From a bacterium (lineage in GTDB: Bacteria; Armatimonadota; Zipacnadia; Zipacnadales; UBA11051), in NCBI GenBank assembly GCA_021372615.1, contig JAJFUB010000131.1:1-64000 (forward strand): a stretch of 64,000 nucleotides of DNA, given 5' to 3'. The notes below the pieces were generated by a model. It saw nothing but the letters and a program-made list of their open reading frames with translations, was not told where the DNA came from and did no database searches. The translations under genes and the position numbers were made by a program. Positions 4,337 through 54,735 of the stretch are shown piece by piece (the stretch's first letter is position 1; the number at the start of each line of letters is the position of its first letter).

Positions 4337-4364
4337 GCGGCTCTGGAGAGCCGCGCTCCTACGG
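4337..4364 (-). repeat. REP-like palindrome, leader type GTAGGAGCG
   Basis: In the 86-bp gap between lptC and lptA, the minus strand reads CCGTAGGAGCGCGGCTC then TCCA then GAGCCGC. It has the leader GTAGGAGCG followed by a GCGGCTC/GAGCCGC stem. The same leader and stem occur at 54706-54735. It is a member of the dispersed family described in the findings. Confidence 0.75.
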
Positions 4365-12155: not shown

Positions 12156-13004
12156 ATGCCTGACGTGCTCATGCACATCAACTACTTCGAGGCTGGCTAC
12201 TCACTTAGCACGCTGTTCGACGAGGCCAAGTTCTACGGCTACGACGGCGTGGAGCTGCGCGGCACGCGCGAGGGCTTGACGCCGGCCAAGTACGTCGCCC
12301 AGGTCAAGAAGGAGATGGCCCGCACCGGCCTCTGCGTCGTCATGGCCTGCCCCTGCAACCTCAACAACCCCAAGGCTGACGAGCGTGCCGCCGCCGTGGA
12401 GCAGTCCACCGACCTGCTCAAGAAGGCCGCGGCCATCGGCGTGAAGCTGTTCAACACCATGGCCGGCTCACTGACCGTCGCCGGCATTCCCTACACCGAG
12501 TTTGACAAGCACGGCTCGGGGGCCGCGACGTGGGAGCAGTGGGCCTGGGCGGTGGAGGGCTTCCAGCAGTTGGGCGCCGTCGCCGAGGAACTCGGCGTCC
12601 GCATGGCCTTCGAGACCCATAACGGCTACATCCACGACCTCGCCAAGCCCACTGCCGAGTTCCTGCGGCGCATCGGCTCGCCCGCGATCGGCGCGAACCT
12701 GGATATGGGCAACATCGTGCTCAACAAGAACGGCGAGCCGCTGCGTGACGCGCTCAGCATCCTGGGCGACAAGGTCTACTACAACCACCTTAAGAACATC
12801 TTCAAGCCCTCGACGGGCGGCTACATCGTCTGCGGGTTGTCCGACGGTGTGATTGACAACCGCGTGTGGGCCCAGACGCTCAAGGACACGGGGAATCGCA
12901 GCCCGATCTGTCTCGAGGCCCCACGCCAGGGCGACCGCGACTTCTTCGCCAAGGCCGACATCGAGTACTTCCGGTGGGTCCTCGAGGGCATCGGCTGGGC
13001 CTAG
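12156..13004 (+). CDS. sugar phosphate isomerase/epimerase-type TIM barrel protein
   Basis: A 282-residue xylose-isomerase-like TIM barrel (AP endonuclease 2 superfamily). Four metal-ligand positions can be read: E in MAFETHNG, D in ANLDMGN, H in YNHLKN and E in CLEAPRQGD. These enzymes isomerise or epimerise free or phosphorylated sugars and related polyols; the substrate cannot be predicted. GAGAGGA precedes the ATG. It is divergent from holA and followed by a cluster of palindromes, so it is probably transcribed on its own or with the glycosyltransferases downstream. Confidence 0.85.
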   Translation: MPDVLMHINYFEAGYSLSTLFDEAKFYGYDGVELRGTREGLTPAKYVAQVKKEMARTGLCVVMACPCNLNNPKADERAAAVEQSTDLLKKAAAIGVKLFNTMAGSLTVAGIPYTEFDKHGSGAATWEQWAWAVEGFQQLGAVAEELGVRMAFETHNGYIHDLAKPTAEFLRRIGSPAIGANLDMGNIVLNKNGEPLRDALSILGDKVYYNHLKNIFKPSTGGYIVCGLSDGVIDNRVWAQTLKDTGNRSPICLEAPRQGDRDFFAKADIEYFRWVLEGIGWA

Positions 13005-13006
13005 TG

Positions 13007-13103
13007 CCGTAGGAGCGCCGGCTTCCAGCCGACAGCCGTAGGAGCGCGGGCGTTCCAGCCCGCGCCGTGCCATCCCAACCGCGGGCTGGAAAGCCCGCGT
13101 TCC
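13007..13103. repeat. cluster of three REP-like palindromes
   Basis: Two head-to-tail copies (13007-13035 and 13036-13067) begin CCGTAGGAGCG and continue into different palindromes around a TTCCAG loop (CCGGC... and CGGGC...). A third copy in the opposite orientation occupies 13079-13103. Copies two and three thus form an inverted pair 11 bp apart. The third copy ends six bases before the ATG of the next gene and occupies the position of its ribosome binding site. Confidence 0.85.
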
Positions 13104-13109
13104 ATTGCC

Positions 13110-14270
13110 ATGAGCTACCTTCTCTTCGCCACCGACTACCCGCCCCAGACCGGCGGCATCCAGCGTTACCACAGCAACCTCGCGCTGGCCCTGCAGGCCC
13201 TGGGGCGGGAGGTGCACGTGGTGGCCACGGAGTCGTCGGGCTGGCAGGAGCATGACGCCGCCGCACAGGTGCCGGTGACCCGCATTCCCGGGGGCCTGAG
13301 CAAGCTGCGGACGACGCAGCGCATGCGCGATCAGGCCCTCGCGCTTGCCAACGGCCTCAGCCGGCCCCTGAGGGGCATCGTCGCGACGAAGTGGTCGCCC
13401 GAAGGGTTGGGGGCCCTGCAGGCGGCGCGGCGGCTGGGCGTGCCGTGGGGCGTGTTCGGCCACGACCGCGAGTTCATCCTGCACGCCGCCAATGTCATCA
13501 AGTGGGCGCTGCAGAGCTACCTACTCACCCGCGCCGACCTCTGCTTCGCCATCAGCAGCTATGCCGCGGACAGCTTCCGCCGGGGCTTTGCCCCCGCGTC
13601 GCACATCCGTATGGTCGGCTGCGGCATCGAGAGTGAGCTATTCCAGCCGGACCCGACCACCGCGGCGCGGCTGCGGGAGCGCTTCGGCCTGCAGGGACGG
13701 CCCGTGCTGCTGACCGTCTCCCGCCTGGTCCCCCGCAAGGGACACCTGACGGTCATGCAGGCCCTGCGGACGGTGAAGCAGCGGTTCCCGGACGTCGCCT
13801 ATCTGATCGTCGGCGAGGGCGAGTTCCGCGCCCGGCTGGAGCAGGGCATCGTCGCGAACGGCTTGCAGGGCCAGGTCATCATGGCCGGCCGTGCCGGTGA
13901 CGACGAGCTGTGCGGCTACTACACGCTCGCCGACGCCATGGTCATGCCCAGCTATGACATCCCCGGCAAGCCGACCGAAGGCTTTGGGCTGACGTATCTG
14001 GAAGCGAACTGCTGCGGGACGCCCGTGATCGGCAGCCGCACCGGCGGCATCCCCGACGCCATCGAGGAGGGGTGCAGCGGGCTGCTGGTACCCCCGCGCG
14101 ATCCGAGGGCCCTCGCGCAGGCGATTGAGCGCCTGCTGGGCGACCCTCAGGCGGCGCGCGCCATGGGTCGCTACGGTCAGGAGCGCGCCCGCACGCAATT
14201 CGCATGGGGGCAAGTGGCGCGGCGCGTGGACGCCGCGTTCGAGGAGCTATGTCAGCCAAGAGCAAGCTGA
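13110..14270 (+). CDS. GT4 glycosyltransferase
   Basis: A 386-residue GT-B enzyme of family 4. The N-terminal domain starts FATDYPPQTGGIQRYHSNLA, the glycine-rich acceptor-side loop. The C-terminal domain has LLTVSRLVPRKGH, IVGEGEFRARLE and the donor-binding EGFGLTYLEANCCGTPVIG with EX7E spacing. GT4 enzymes use NDP-sugars with retention of configuration. No clear Shine-Dalgarno precedes the ATG at 13110 because a palindromic element abuts it. The end overlaps the next glycosyltransferase by 22 bp, so the two are coupled and probably act on the same glycan. Confidence 0.9.
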   Translation: MSYLLFATDYPPQTGGIQRYHSNLALALQALGREVHVVATESSGWQEHDAAAQVPVTRIPGGLSKLRTTQRMRDQALALANGLSRPLRGIVATKWSPEGLGALQAARRLGVPWGVFGHDREFILHAANVIKWALQSYLLTRADLCFAISSYAADSFRRGFAPASHIRMVGCGIESELFQPDPTTAARLRERFGLQGRPVLLTVSRLVPRKGHLTVMQALRTVKQRFPDVAYLIVGEGEFRARLEQGIVANGLQGQVIMAGRAGDDELCGYYTLADAMVMPSYDIPGKPTEGFGLTYLEANCCGTPVIGSRTGGIPDAIEEGCSGLLVPPRDPRALAQAIERLLGDPQAARAMGRYGQERARTQFAWGQVARRVDAAFEELCQPRAS

Positions 14271-25779: not shown

Positions 25780-25793
25780 GGGGAGCACCGGAG

Positions 25794-25898
25794 CCGTTGG
25801 AGGGGCCGGCTATCAGCCGGCCCGCCGTCTGCTCCGCTAGCCACATCGCAACTGATGTCACCAACGACGGGCCGGCTGCTAGCCGGCCCCTCCAACGG
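25794..25898. repeat. inverted pair of REP-like palindromes between pgk and tpi
   Basis: Copy one (25794-25823) begins CCGTTGGAGGGGCCGGCT and copy two (25869-25898) is its reverse complement over 30 bases with a single mismatch; 45 bp lie between. Each copy also holds an internal palindrome around GCCGGCT-AGCCGGC. The transcript could fold either as two small hairpins or one long one ahead of tpi. The second copy ends in the ribosome binding site region (AACGGAGGAAG). Confidence 0.88.
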
Positions 25899-25909
25899 AG
25901 GAAGACGAT

Positions 25910-34261: not shown

Positions 34262-35038
34262 ATGGACTTGCAGCGCACGACGGAGATCATCATTGGCGTG
34301 GCCCGCGAGGCCGGCGACCATGCGCGGACCGGCTTCGGCGCGGCCACATGCACGCACAAGCACGACGGCACCCTCGTCACCTGCTTCGACAGCCAGTGCG
34401 AGCAGCTCATCCGGGCCCACCTGCGGCACCACTGGCCCGACCACACGATCTACGGCGAGGAAATGGGCCTCGAAGGGCCCCCGGACAACGAGTGGGTCTG
34501 GTACCTCGACCCGATTGACGGCACCAGCAACTTCGTCTTCGGCCTGCCGATCTGGGGGGCGTCCATCGGCCTGGCGCACCGCGGGCAGCCGGTGGCCGGG
34601 GTCTTCTACATGCCCCTGACCGACGAGACGTGGTGGGCCTGGCGCGGCGGGGGGGCGTATCACAACGGGCAGCGCCTGCAGGCGTATGACCCCGAGGACA
34701 TGAACCGCACGGACCTCGTGTGCCTGTCGAGCAGCATCCTCGAGCGCTACCACTTCAGCTTCCCGCAGAAGGTGCGCTGCTACGGTAGCGCGGCCCACGC
34801 GCTGGCCATGATGGCCGGCGGAACCTTCGCCGCCGTCATTCACGACCACTGGTATGTCCATGACATTGCGGCGGCGCTGCTGATGTGCCAGGAGGCGGGG
34901 GCGGTCGTGACGCAGACCGACGGCAGCGACTTCGCGAGCTTCGAGGGCCTCGACCCGAAGGCCAAGGTGCCGGCGTTGGTGGTCACCGGGGGCCAGATCC
35001 ACGAGAGGATGCTCGCGGCGGTGACGCCGAAGGCGTGA
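34262..35038 (+). CDS. inositol monophosphatase-family phosphatase
   Basis: A 258-residue lithium-sensitive-type phosphatase. YGEEMG gives the metal Glu pair (E66, E67), and WYLDPIDGTSNF the DPIDGT motif (83-88) that binds two metals. The third Asp is in HDIAAALLMCQEAGAVV, where the usual WD is HD. Substrates of the family include inositol phosphates, fructose-1,6-bisphosphate, histidinol phosphate and 3'-phosphoadenosine phosphates; the sequence does not decide. The start ATG 17 bp after the remnant hydrolase stop has GAAGAAGG before it. Confidence 0.9.
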   Translation: MDLQRTTEIIIGVAREAGDHARTGFGAATCTHKHDGTLVTCFDSQCEQLIRAHLRHHWPDHTIYGEEMGLEGPPDNEWVWYLDPIDGTSNFVFGLPIWGASIGLAHRGQPVAGVFYMPLTDETWWAWRGGGAYHNGQRLQAYDPEDMNRTDLVCLSSSILERYHFSFPQKVRCYGSAAHALAMMAGGTFAAVIHDHWYVHDIAAALLMCQEAGAVVTQTDGSDFASFEGLDPKAKVPALVVTGGQIHERMLAAVTPKA

Positions 35039-35090
35039 GGCGTGGCCGGTCGGGGTCGGTGACCCCTCCCACACCCCACGTTAGCCCAGG

Positions 35091-35170
35091 CTGTAGGAGC
35101 GGTCACCGACCGCAATGCCGTGGGAGCGGTCACCGACCGCGATGCCGTGGCAGCGGTCACCGACCGCGAC
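35091..35170. repeat. three tandem REP-like units of 27 bp
   Basis: Three consecutive units start with leader TGTAGGAGCG, CCGTGGGAGCG and CCGTGGCAGCG and continue GGTCACCGACCGC plus four bases. The stem GCGGTC/GACCGC is identical in all three; only the leader and linker vary. The block fills most of the 140-bp gap between the phosphatase and the GspF-like gene. Confidence 0.88.
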
Positions 35171-36995: not shown

Positions 36996-38366
36996 ATGAC
37001 TGCCGCCGAGCAACGCCGCCGCCTGCAGAACCTCGCCGATATCAGCGCCGCCCTGGGCGACGCGCCCGGGCACTTCGTCTCCGACTACCTGGCCGGCCAA
37101 GTCGTCTACAACCTGAGCGAGTACCCGGCCCCCACGCCCCTCGCGCCTACTCCGTATGATGAGGAGCTACTGGCCAGCCTGGCGGCGGCGGGGGTGAAGC
37201 TGGTCCAGATCCACGAGGACTTCAACGACTCTCAGCGCCTGCTGGGGGCCGACAAGTTCAGCAGCTACGACGCCGAGGGCCTCCAGCAGTTCGTGGACCT
37301 CGTGCACAGCCTGGGCATGAAGATCATCCCCTACATCTCCAGCGGCTACTTCGATGTGCGCGACCCGGACTTCCGGGAGTGCTGGTATGATCCGCACCGC
37401 GACCGCCTGCAGGAGCTGTACTTCGACTATGCCCACTGCTCGCCTGCCAGCCCGGAGTGGCGGGCGTACCTGCTCGACAAGGTCGAGCGCCTGCTCGACC
37501 GCCACGGCTTCGACGGGCTCTACAACGACATGGGCTACGACCGCCGTGGCGACGCGGAGGCCCTGCCCGAGGGGCAGGTGCGTCCCGGCCCGCAGCCCCA
37601 TGCCGCCGTGGACGACCTGCTCGAGCAGCTCTACAGCCTCGCCCACCGGCGCGGGGGTGTCGTCAAGGTGCATGGCCTCCCGCCGCAGATCGCCGGCCGT
37701 GCGCAGGTGTACGACTACCTCTGGGTCGGCGAAGCGGTGGCGTCGCTGGATAGGCTGCGCCATGACAGCAAGGACCTGCCGCCGTACGTGGTCCCCTGTC
37801 CCGACATGAGCCGCGCCCAGGTCACCGATGAGCACGACCTGTACCTGCATACGGTGCCGTACATGCAGTTCCCGCTGCGGGTGGACGGACGCCCGGTGAC
37901 GGGCGAGCGGGCGTCCGTGCCCGGCGTGTCCTACCAGCCCGAGGAGCGCTGCTTCTGGACCCGCCACATGCGCGCCATCGGGCGCCACTTCCGCCAGTGC
38001 CCGGAGGGGCCGCACACGTACGGTTGGTGGGATAGCTGCCCCGGGCGGGCCGAGGCGCGCCAGACGTGGATGGACACCTTCGCGCTCTACCAGCCCATGG
38101 TGACGCCCGGCAGCCGCGTCTGGACGGACGTCCCGCCCAACCCGCTCCTCGACTGGCGCCTGCCGCCGGAGGTCGTGGCGAGCTTCTTCGTCAATGTCGA
38201 GACCTATCTCGTCCTGGCCAACTACGGCGAGAACCCGGCGACAGTAACGTCGCCGTGGCAGTGGTCGTTAGTGGGACCGCGGGCCTCCAGCCCGCAGCCG
38301 TCCCAGCGCCTCACACTGCAACCAGGCCAACTACTGTTTCTGCGGAGGATTCACGAGCATGTCTGA
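36996..38366 (+). CDS. glycosidase-like TIM barrel protein
   Basis: A 456-residue cytosolic protein. VKLVQIHEDFNDSQRLLG, VDLVHSLGMKIIPYISSGYF and LLDRHGFDGLYNDMGYDRRG are strand-acid patterns of alpha-amylase or alpha-galactosidase-like barrels. The Asp in YNDMGYD is a good candidate nucleophile. The C-terminal beta domain ends LTLQPGQLLFLRR. I cannot name the family. A palindromic element is embedded in frame near the end (residues about 426-437, VGPRASSPQPSQ). AGGTGA precedes the ATG. The stop overlaps the phosphodiesterase start by 8 bp, so the two are translated together. Confidence 0.6.
   Translation: MTAAEQRRRLQNLADISAALGDAPGHFVSDYLAGQVVYNLSEYPAPTPLAPTPYDEELLASLAAAGVKLVQIHEDFNDSQRLLGADKFSSYDAEGLQQFVDLVHSLGMKIIPYISSGYFDVRDPDFRECWYDPHRDRLQELYFDYAHCSPASPEWRAYLLDKVERLLDRHGFDGLYNDMGYDRRGDAEALPEGQVRPGPQPHAAVDDLLEQLYSLAHRRGGVVKVHGLPPQIAGRAQVYDYLWVGEAVASLDRLRHDSKDLPPYVVPCPDMSRAQVTDEHDLYLHTVPYMQFPLRVDGRPVTGERASVPGVSYQPEERCFWTRHMRAIGRHFRQCPEGPHTYGWWDSCPGRAEARQTWMDTFALYQPMVTPGSRVWTDVPPNPLLDWRLPPEVVASFFVNVETYLVLANYGENPATVTSPWQWSLVGPRASSPQPSQRLTLQPGQLLFLRRIHEHV
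38271..38300 (+). repeat. REP-like palindrome inside a coding region
   Basis: Bases read GTGGGACCGCGGGC, CTCCAG, CCCGCAGCCG, aligning with the copy at 13036 (GTAGGAGCGCGGGC, GTTCCAG, CCCGCGCCG). It encodes VGPRASSPQP in frame, 66 bp before the stop codon of the glycosidase-like gene. Confidence 0.75.
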
Positions 38367-39153
38367 GTACTCACTGACGCAGCTGGCGCCGACGATCGCG
38401 GCCGTCTTGGGGTTGCCGGCGCCGAACGGCTGCCGGCAGGATGCCGGCGCTTCTGTGGCTGGCGCTCCAAAGGCGATCCCCGAGATCGTCGCCGACTTGC
38501 AGGGGGCGGAGCGACTGGCCGTCCTGGCCCCGGACGCGCTGGGGATGCACCCGTTCACCCTATGGCGACACGAGATGCCGTTCCTGGACGGACTGCACCG
38601 GCAGCACAGCCTGGTGCTGCGGGCCGTCATGCCCACGATCACTCCTGTGAACTTCTCGACGATGGTCACGGGGGCGGAGTTGGATGTGCATGGCATGCAG
38701 AGCCGGGAGAGCGACTTCCAGTGTGAGACGCTCTTCGACACCGTCCGGGCACATGGCGGCCGCAGCGCCGGGGTGGGCCGAGTCGGCTACACCGGCTCGA
38801 TGATCCTCGCCCGCTTCGCCGACCTGCAGGGCACTGCGGAGAGCAATACCGACGCCGAGGTGGAGCAGATCACCCTTGGCTTCGCGCGCGAGCAGCTACC
38901 CGAGTTCGTCATCGTGCAGCTCGGCAGCACCGACGACGTATTCCACCAGCACGGGCCGTCCTCGCCCGAGGCCCTGCCTGTCGTGCGCGAAACGGATGAG
39001 CGATTGGGGCGGATGGTGGAGGAGTTGGTGGGCCTCGGCTACGCGGTCATCGTCACTGCCGACCACGGCCAGCACGATTGCGACCGGGGCGGCACGCACG
39101 GCAGCGAGTCCGACGAGGATGCGCTGGTGCCGTGCACATGGTTGGCCCCGTAG
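38359..39153 (+). CDS. alkaline phosphatase-superfamily phosphodiesterase
   Basis: A 264-residue metal enzyme. Metal Asp D59 is in LAPDALG, the nucleophile Thr is T101 in TPVNFSTMVTG (compare PNHYTIVTG of nucleotide pyrophosphatases), ADHGQHD gives the second metal Asp-His, and GTHGSE the third His. No signal peptide, so it acts in the cytosol. It is shorter than classical members (350-450). An in-frame palindromic insert codes for GCRQDAGASV near residues 24-33. Translation is coupled to the glycosidase-like gene; the pair may act on a phosphorylated or glycosylated metabolite. Confidence 0.78.
   Translation: MSEYSLTQLAPTIAAVLGLPAPNGCRQDAGASVAGAPKAIPEIVADLQGAERLAVLAPDALGMHPFTLWRHEMPFLDGLHRQHSLVLRAVMPTITPVNFSTMVTGAELDVHGMQSRESDFQCETLFDTVRAHGGRSAGVGRVGYTGSMILARFADLQGTAESNTDAEVEQITLGFAREQLPEFVIVQLGSTDDVFHQHGPSSPEALPVVRETDERLGRMVEELVGLGYAVIVTADHGQHDCDRGGTHGSESDEDALVPCTWLAP
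38427..38456 (-). repeat. REP-like palindrome inside a coding region, opposite orientation
   Basis: On the minus strand the sequence reads ACAGAAGCGCCGGC, ATCCT, GCCGGCAGCCG, aligning with the copy at 13007 (GTAGGAGCGCCGGC, TTCCA, GCCGACAG). With the copy at 38271 it forms an inverted pair around the junction of the two overlapping genes. Confidence 0.75.
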
Positions 39154-53663: not shown

Positions 53664-54713
53664 ATGTCCTGGCTACCCTTCAACTGCGGGCTCGGCGCGG
53701 TCTACATGTTGCACCCGGGCAAGACCCGGTCCATCTCGGCGGAGAATCCCGCTGGCGCCCCCGGGGCCGGGGCCCAGGCCATCCCCGACGGGGGCGCTGC
53801 CGCAGCCCTCGGCCAGGGCTGGAAGGTCCGCCCGTGCATCACCGTCAAGGCCGGCGAGACCGTGACTTTGGCCGACATCGCCGGCCCGGGTGTGATCCAG
53901 CACATCTGGATCACCGTCAGCGAGAAGGCCTATCGCGACTGCCTGCTGCGCATGTACTGGGACGGAGAGGACACCCCCTCGGTCGAAATCCCCCTGGGCG
54001 ACCTGTTCTGCTGCGGCCACAGCCTGCGGGCGAAGGTCAACTCCCTCCCCATCGCCGTGAACCCCTCGGGCGGGATGAACAGCTACTGGCCCATGCCCTT
54101 CGGCCGGGGCGCGCGCGTCACGGTCGAGAACCAGCGCTGGGAGGACATCGGGGGCTTCTTCTACCAGATCACGTGGGCCGAGACGCCCGTGCCCGATGAG
54201 GCCGCGACCTTCCACGCCCAGTGGCGCCGCTCCATGGGCACGCGCGAGGTCCCCGAGCATGTCATCCTCGACGGCATCCGCGGCCGGGGGCAGTATGTCG
54301 GCACATATCTGGCCTGGACGCAGCTTTCCGACGGGTGGTGGGGCGAGGGGGAGATCAAGTTCTATCTCGATGGCGACACGCAGTTCCCGACGATCTGCGG
54401 TACCGGCACGGAGGACTACTTCGGGGGAGCCTGGGGCTTCGGGGACACCTTCAGCACGGCCTTCCTGGGCTACCCGCTGTGGCAGAAGGAGCCGGGACGG
54501 GTCCCCAAGCATGGCCTGTACCGCTGGCACGTCATGGACCCGATCCGCTTCGACGAGGACCTGAAGGTCACGATGCAGGAGCTGGGCTGGTGGCCCAACG
54601 GGCAGTTCCAGCCGCTGACCGATGACATCGCCTCGGTACGATACTGGTACCAGTCCGAGCCGCACGCGGCCTTCCCGGCCATGCCGCCGCCACCGGCGCG
54701 CTGGAGCCGTTAG
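53664..54713 (+). CDS. GH172 (DUF2961) family glycoside hydrolase
   Basis: A 349-residue protein without signal peptide. FNCGLGAVYMLHPGKTRSIS opens a DUF2961 double beta-jelly-roll; GPGVIQHIWITVS, YWDGEDTPSVEIPLGDLFC and ICGTGTEDYFGGAWGF are the family landmarks, the last with the probable catalytic Glu. GH172 members include difructose-anhydride synthase and alpha-arabinofuranosidases that act on furanose sugars. The stop codon TAG lies inside a REP-like element (GTTAGGAGCG), so the original C-terminus may have been shortened. Confidence 0.88.
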   Translation: MSWLPFNCGLGAVYMLHPGKTRSISAENPAGAPGAGAQAIPDGGAAAALGQGWKVRPCITVKAGETVTLADIAGPGVIQHIWITVSEKAYRDCLLRMYWDGEDTPSVEIPLGDLFCCGHSLRAKVNSLPIAVNPSGGMNSYWPMPFGRGARVTVENQRWEDIGGFFYQITWAETPVPDEAATFHAQWRRSMGTREVPEHVILDGIRGRGQYVGTYLAWTQLSDGWWGEGEIKFYLDGDTQFPTICGTGTEDYFGGAWGFGDTFSTAFLGYPLWQKEPGRVPKHGLYRWHVMDPIRFDEDLKVTMQELGWWPNGQFQPLTDDIASVRYWYQSEPHAAFPAMPPPPARWSR

Positions 54714-54735
54714 GAGCGCGGCTCGCCAGAGCCGC
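54706..54735 (+). repeat. REP-like palindrome that supplies the GH172 stop codon
   Basis: GCCGTTAGGAGCG followed by CGGCTC, GCCA, GAGCCG. Leader and stem match the minus-strand copy at 4337-4364. The TAG at 54711-54713 in the leader ends the GH172 reading frame. Confidence 0.8.

Follow-up and report, generated by a model that had tools for sequence, protein, structure and literature searches.

Repetitive extragenic palindromes (REPs) that carry a GTAG tag, exist as complementary stem variants, form inverted dimers and are found with flanking REP-associated tyrosine transposases (RAYTs) have already been described, as the GTAG-1 and GTAG-2 families (Di Nocera et al. 2013, PMC3733652) and as the REPs of Pseudomonas and Xanthomonas (Nunvar et al. 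2010, PMC2817692). A GA spacer has been reported for the Pseudomonas/Xanthomonas REP types (PMC3733652, PMC2817692), and a Pseudomonas/Xanthomonas RAYT subclass, 2.5, is listed in the subclass motif table of PMC6006769.

The window, a stretch of 64 kb from a MAG of Candidatus Zipacnadia, contains dispersed elements in which a leader is followed by a palindrome, and those listed in an earlier note on this DNA were found where it had placed them. The PurL protein encoded in the window is 81% identical to that of the MAG Armatimonadetes bacterium Ch33 and ∼66-70% identical to those of many MAGs of Candidatus Zipacnadia, a class of Armatimonadota. The elements are very probably REPs of the GTAG superfamily, i.e. 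non-autonomous mobile hairpins of single-stranded DNA that are multiplied by RAYTs (Y1 HUH enzymes). We base this reading on their copy number and its controls, on stem covariation, on the flanks of a RAYT gene located on contig C34 and of its homologues, and on the match between the presence of this RAYT clade and the abundance of the elements.

As in the GTAG superfamily, GT(A/G)G stands at the base of a hairpin of 5-13 bp, the elements are dispersed in high copy number, and inverted dimers and clusters are formed. The similarity to GTAG-1 and GTAG-2 extends to the unpaired GA before the stem, a stem of 5-9 bp, a short loop, a short conserved tail (GA in type II, defined below) and alternative complementary stem residues between subfamilies. 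In contrast to the GTAG REPs, the type I spacer is GAGC (4 nt) and the type I loop (T)TCC, and the host belongs to Armatimonadota (Candidatus Zipacnadia), which is absent from the GTAG host list in PMC3733652. In the open-access literature that we searched, no paper tied RAYTs or REP sequences to Armatimonadota. The REP/RAYT kind is itself known; what is new here is the host class and a series of elements in which the leader is constant and the stem varies.

Architecture and location of the elements

Two main architectures share the leader GTRGGA. Type I elements begin with GTRGGAGC, followed by a 7-bp stem that starts with GC (GCCGGCT, GCCAGCT, GCCAGCA, GCCGGCA, GCGGGCT or GCGGCTC) and a TCC, TTCC or TCCA loop. 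In type II elements GTRGGA is followed by GCGGTC-ACC-GACCGC or GGGGTC-ACC-GACCCC and then by GA, so the spacer between the GT(A/G)G head and the stem is 2 nt in type II and 4 nt in type I. The following elements were identified in the window:

4337-4362 (-): type I REP; leader GTAGGAGC, stem GCGGCTC/GAGCCGC
13009-13033 (+): type I REP; leader GTAGGAGC, stem GCCGGCT/AGCCGAC with one mismatch, loop TCC
13038-13063 (+): type I REP; leader GTAGGAGC, stem GCGGGCG/AGCCCGC with one mismatch, loop TTCC
13080-13104 (-): type I REP; degenerate leader TGGAAC, stem CGCGGGCT/AGCCCGCG; inverted pair with 13038
25796-25823 (+): related element; leader GTTGGAG, stem GGGCCGGCT/AGCCGGCCC, loop ATC
25869-25896 (-): inverted partner of the 25796 element; same leader and stem, different loop
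35052-35072 (-): type II REP; leader GTGGGA, stem GGGGTC/GACCCC
35093-35113 (+): type II REP; GTAGGA followed by GCGGTC-ACC-GACCGC; first unit of a 27-bp tandem array
35120-35140 (+): type II REP; second unit of the 27-bp tandem array
35147-35167 (+): type II REP; third unit of the 27-bp tandem array, leader GTGGCA
38271-38295 (+): type I REP; degenerate leader GTGGGACC, stem GCGGGCC/AGCCCGC with one mismatch
38432-38456 (-): type I REP; decayed leader, stem GCCGGCA/TGCCGGC, loop TCC
54709-54735 (+): type I REP; degenerate leader GTTAGGAGC, stem GCGGCTC/GAGCCGC

The type II element at 35052-35072(-), the recognition of 13038(+)/13080(-) and 25796(+)/25869(-) as inverted pairs, and that of 35093/35120/35147 as a tandem array are additions to the earlier list. 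The leader, which had been described as constant, is degenerate at 13080-13104(-), 38271, 38432-38456(-) and 54709; the stem of the 38432 element recurs with an intact leader at C92:70340-70364. The stem contains one mismatched pair at 13009 (GCCGGCT-TCC-AGCCGAC) and in a few others. The GTTGGAG leader with GGGCCGGCT-NNN-AGCCGGCCC represents a third leader variant, present in ∼6 copies in 1.6 Mb and with no adjoining RAYT.

According to the gene calls for the window, the intergenic placement of three clusters is clear. The hairpins 13009(+), 13038(+) and 13080(-) fill the 105-bp gap (13005-13109) that separates the genes for a TIM-barrel protein (12156-13004) and a glycosyltransferase (13110-14270), the 25796/25869 pair is located between the phosphoglycerate kinase (PGK) and triosephosphate isomerase (TIM) genes (25780-25909), and the type II cluster (35052-35167) lies downstream of an inositol phosphatase ORF that ends at 35038. 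At 54709, the leader overlaps the stop codon of the ORF 53664-54713.

Copy number and stem pairing

As the earlier note proposed, copies were counted genome-wide and a covariance model was used. The count gave 213 exact 21-bp copies of the type II unit GTRGGAGCGGTCACCGACCGC, and the model matched type I elements at least 151 times. The reversed type II pattern had 0 copies, and 40 further genomes of the order had no copy of the exact unit. The pattern GTRGGAGCGN{3,14}TTCCAGCC gave 36 exact matches genome-wide and its reversed form 0. Sequence was sampled directly in tiles amounting to 1.61 Mb (25% of the genome), and the remainder was queried by pattern and model. Among 134 sampled elements, 21 pairs had the leaders outside and 2 had them inside, and there were 22 tandem neighbours and 58 singletons. 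Inverted pairing is shared with REPINs/BIMEs (Bertels and Rainey 2011, PMC3116915), from which the elements differ in the 58/134 singletons and in the frequent tandem neighbours. Type II tandem arrays with ∼27-bp spacing were also observed at G000:C21:7902-8241 and C73:16-171 (G000 is the genome of the window).

The leader alone is unremarkable in the window (5 matches versus 2.2 expected; 6 of 100 shuffles reach 5), and leader counts alone do not discriminate, the reversed pattern being even commoner than the leader in one count. The stems that follow the leader do discriminate. Of 60 leader sites in 439 kb of genome sequence, 22 were followed by a stem of ≥6 bp, compared with 0-2 for 15 permuted leaders. 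In the 1.61 Mb, 133 stems of ≥6 bp followed GTNGGAG versus 5-37 for permuted leaders, with the exception of GTGNGAG, which scored high and matches the same elements. Sites were also chosen by leader and loop, with no requirement for pairing. Of 32 such sites of type I, 28 formed at least 6 of 7 pairs, and of 98 of type II, 80 formed at least 5 of 6; in permuted controls of this selection 0 were paired at those thresholds.

The proposal that the stems change and still pair is borne out by compensatory changes, as five of the seven type I pairs are altered on both sides. In an alignment of type I elements from the genome and from the RAYT flanks of its relatives, 95.5% of cells are paired, versus 75.0% after shuffling of the 3′ letters and 25-47% for slid structures. 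The own-genome rows of this alignment were found by pairing and those of the relatives as gene-flanking repeats, which makes the selection by leader and loop the fairer test of pairing. Since the stem variants fall into few discrete subfamilies, the independent stem-change events are few. Stem pairing can also persist through quasi-palindrome correction during replication, without selection.

A RAYT gene flanked by type I elements

As the earlier note stated, there is no transposase gene in the window. The genome contains seven Y1 genes, one of which is a RAYT gene at a contig end (C34:112831-113346(-)). Downstream of it lies an inverted pair of the type I element GTAGGAGC-GCCAGCT-TCC-AGCTGGC, and upstream the same pair is cut by the end of the contig. 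The suggested RAYT/REP reading thus gains support from outside the window, and the suggestion of a Y1 gene flanked by the same elements holds for type I; type II, the most numerous subfamily, is without a RAYT in this assembly.

The C34 protein scored 81.8 bits against the NCBIfam model NF047646 (REP-associated tyrosine transposase; cut-off 80). Its closest PDB match is E. coli TnpA-REP (4er8), both by sequence (E 8.5e-6) and by predicted fold (E 7.7e-7; model pLDDT 75.9). The two have in common the Y1 HUH fold, the NHVH and Y...NP motifs and the presence of their own REPs on the flanks of the gene, whereas their sequence identity is low. Residues H142, H144, Y202, N206 and P207 (HUH, catalytic Tyr and NP) are invariant across 12 RAYTs of the class, and the C34 clade has ∼30 aa more than the other class RAYTs in the stretch from the first strand to the HUH motif. 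The motifs of the clade (NHVH, W[DQH] and Y[TI]E[MW]NP) do not correspond to those of subclass 2.5 (DH[LF]H, WQ and YI[VI]ANP; PMC6006769), although the REP heads are similar, and the motif comparison gave no assignment of the clade to any published RAYT subclass.

Homologous RAYTs and abundance of the elements in the class

The four closest homologues of the C34 RAYT in the class (L210-L213, from genomes G009, G042, G014 and G026) are 51-57% identical to it. All four have hairpins on both sides that are led by CTGGGA[GC]C (CTGGGAGC; in G014 CTGGGACC), with CTGG in place of the GTRG of GTAG REPs. Their stems (GCGGGCT/G, GCAGGCA/T, GCCGCCG and GCGGGCG; those of L210 from G009 with one mismatch) are unlike that of the C34 flanks.

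Type I matches with E ≤ 0.001 numbered 134 in the genome of the window, 96 in G009, 50 in G042 and 8 each in G014 and G026. In 41 genomes without the C34 clade, G022 had 11 and the others 0 or 1. At least 8 matches were therefore present in 5 of 5 genomes with the clade versus 1 of 41 without it (one-sided Fisher 4.4e-6), in a test that is not fully independent because its model (R1) includes elements that flank C34-clade RAYTs, while the dispersed copies still count, and whose genomes are related and so are not independent samples. In G022, which is 86% complete, a C34-clade RAYT was not found, and the pattern possibly reflects loss of the RAYT or an assembly gap.

Across the class, GT[AG]G hairpins without a spacer were found within 500 bp of the RAYT at 14 of 29 loci, compared with 0 of 25 PurL loci and 22 of 300 random 1-kb stretches of the window's own genome. 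Many of the loci L214-L238 have such hairpins, for example GTAG-GACAGGCT-TTCC-AGCCTGTC, with variable stems and a recurrent TCC, TTCC or TCT loop.

Type II elements and other Y1 genes

Type II elements adjoin none of the seven Y1 loci of this assembly. In G001, a sister genus, the RAYT L249 (P0001; C130, 2256-2726 (-)) has elements of the GTAGGA-GCGCTC-ACCA-GAGCGC-GA type on both sides, and this is the only type II-flanked RAYT among the Y1 loci of G001. The HUH motif of L249 reads DHLR, with Arg in place of the second HUH histidine, so this copy may be inactive or may contain a sequence error. Its nearest homologue in the genome of the window is only 36% identical and is surrounded by other palindromes. 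G001 also contains dispersed elements of the GCGGTC-ACCA-GACCGC and GGGGTC-TCT-GACCCC types. In the genome of the window many contigs end within type II units; because of this, the assembly breaks probably fall at type II repeats, and a type II RAYT could be located in the gaps.

Other Y1 genes of this genome have palindromes of their own around them: CAGTGCCGGCG-TCT-CGCCGGC at G000:C146 (L048 9021-9948), GGCGGGGGC-GGAA-GCCCCCGTC at G000:C40 (L044 9142-10313), GTAG-CCGTGGGC-GGCA-GCCCACGG at G000:C56 (L043 5822-6582) and a long GC-rich repeat at G000:C160 (L047 15437, 16177). With each of these genes having its own palindromes, several REP-like systems coexist in the genome.

Alternative explanations

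The hairpins might instead be kept for a role of RNA or DNA structure in the host (termination, protection of mRNA 3′ ends, or binding of gyrase or other proteins) and owe their spread to recombination and not to a transposase. We regard this as improbable. The intergenic position of the three clearest clusters in the window would fit such a role, and REPs elsewhere do have host functions of this kind (PMC3733652). Yet a T-run (at least 5 T in the next 8 nt, either strand) follows 0 of the 134 hairpins, and no Rfam match was obtained; the identities of transcription terminator and known Rfam RNA family were rejected on these grounds. A host function also leaves unexplained both the flanking of the RAYT gene and an amplification so limited to one species that the 213 exact copies face 0 in the 40 genomes of the order. 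It could be a secondary role of the elements.

It is highly improbable that the elements are remnants of the ends of insertion sequences, of the IS200/IS605 type or another (degraded IS or MITEs). The ends of IS200/IS605 are likewise hairpins that Y1 transposases read, and some Y1 genes of the genome look more IS-like (C125, with TTTTGGGGACACCATACTT-type ends). The elements, however, occur as single units of 25 nt, as inverted pairs or in tandem arrays and not as left and right IS ends, the C34 protein scores as a REP-associated tyrosine transposase and not as IS200, and its gene and those of the four close homologues occur in single to few copies per genome, flanked by guide and hairpin units of REP type. 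A multi-copy Y1 unit between end hairpins, as in IS200/IS605, was not found for the C34-type gene, which has one full match in the genome, while the hairpins alone are present in hundreds of copies.

Proposed mechanism and implications

For REPs multiplied by RAYTs, the mobility of the elements is inferred from their anatomy and from work on TnpA-REP (reviewed in PMC6006769). By analogy with TnpA-REP biochemistry, the RAYT would bind single-stranded DNA at the GTRG guide and the hairpin, its tyrosine would cut near the guide, and the copies would be re-inserted, often as inverted pairs. We propose that recognition rests on the guide, the loop and the shape of the helix more than on the stem sequence, so that the stem would be free to drift if both arms change together, and each RAYT lineage would give rise to its own stem subfamilies. 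Type II would represent a second REP lineage, whose transposase may have been lost or may be absent from the assembly; the C34 RAYT might mobilise type II in trans. The more specific idea that the C34 enzyme depends chiefly on the GTRGGAG guide and the helix shape for recognition, and mobilises in trans the subfamily on its flanks as well as the orphan type II elements, is tentative and rather unlikely. If one RAYT did serve several stems, the diversity of stems within the genome would reflect relaxed stem specificity and not one enzyme per stem.

These results place REP/RAYT systems in Candidatus Zipacnadia, an uncultured class of Armatimonadota. The five homologous RAYTs, whose elements have a nearly constant leader and loop and differ in their stems, form a natural series for the question of what a RAYT reads.
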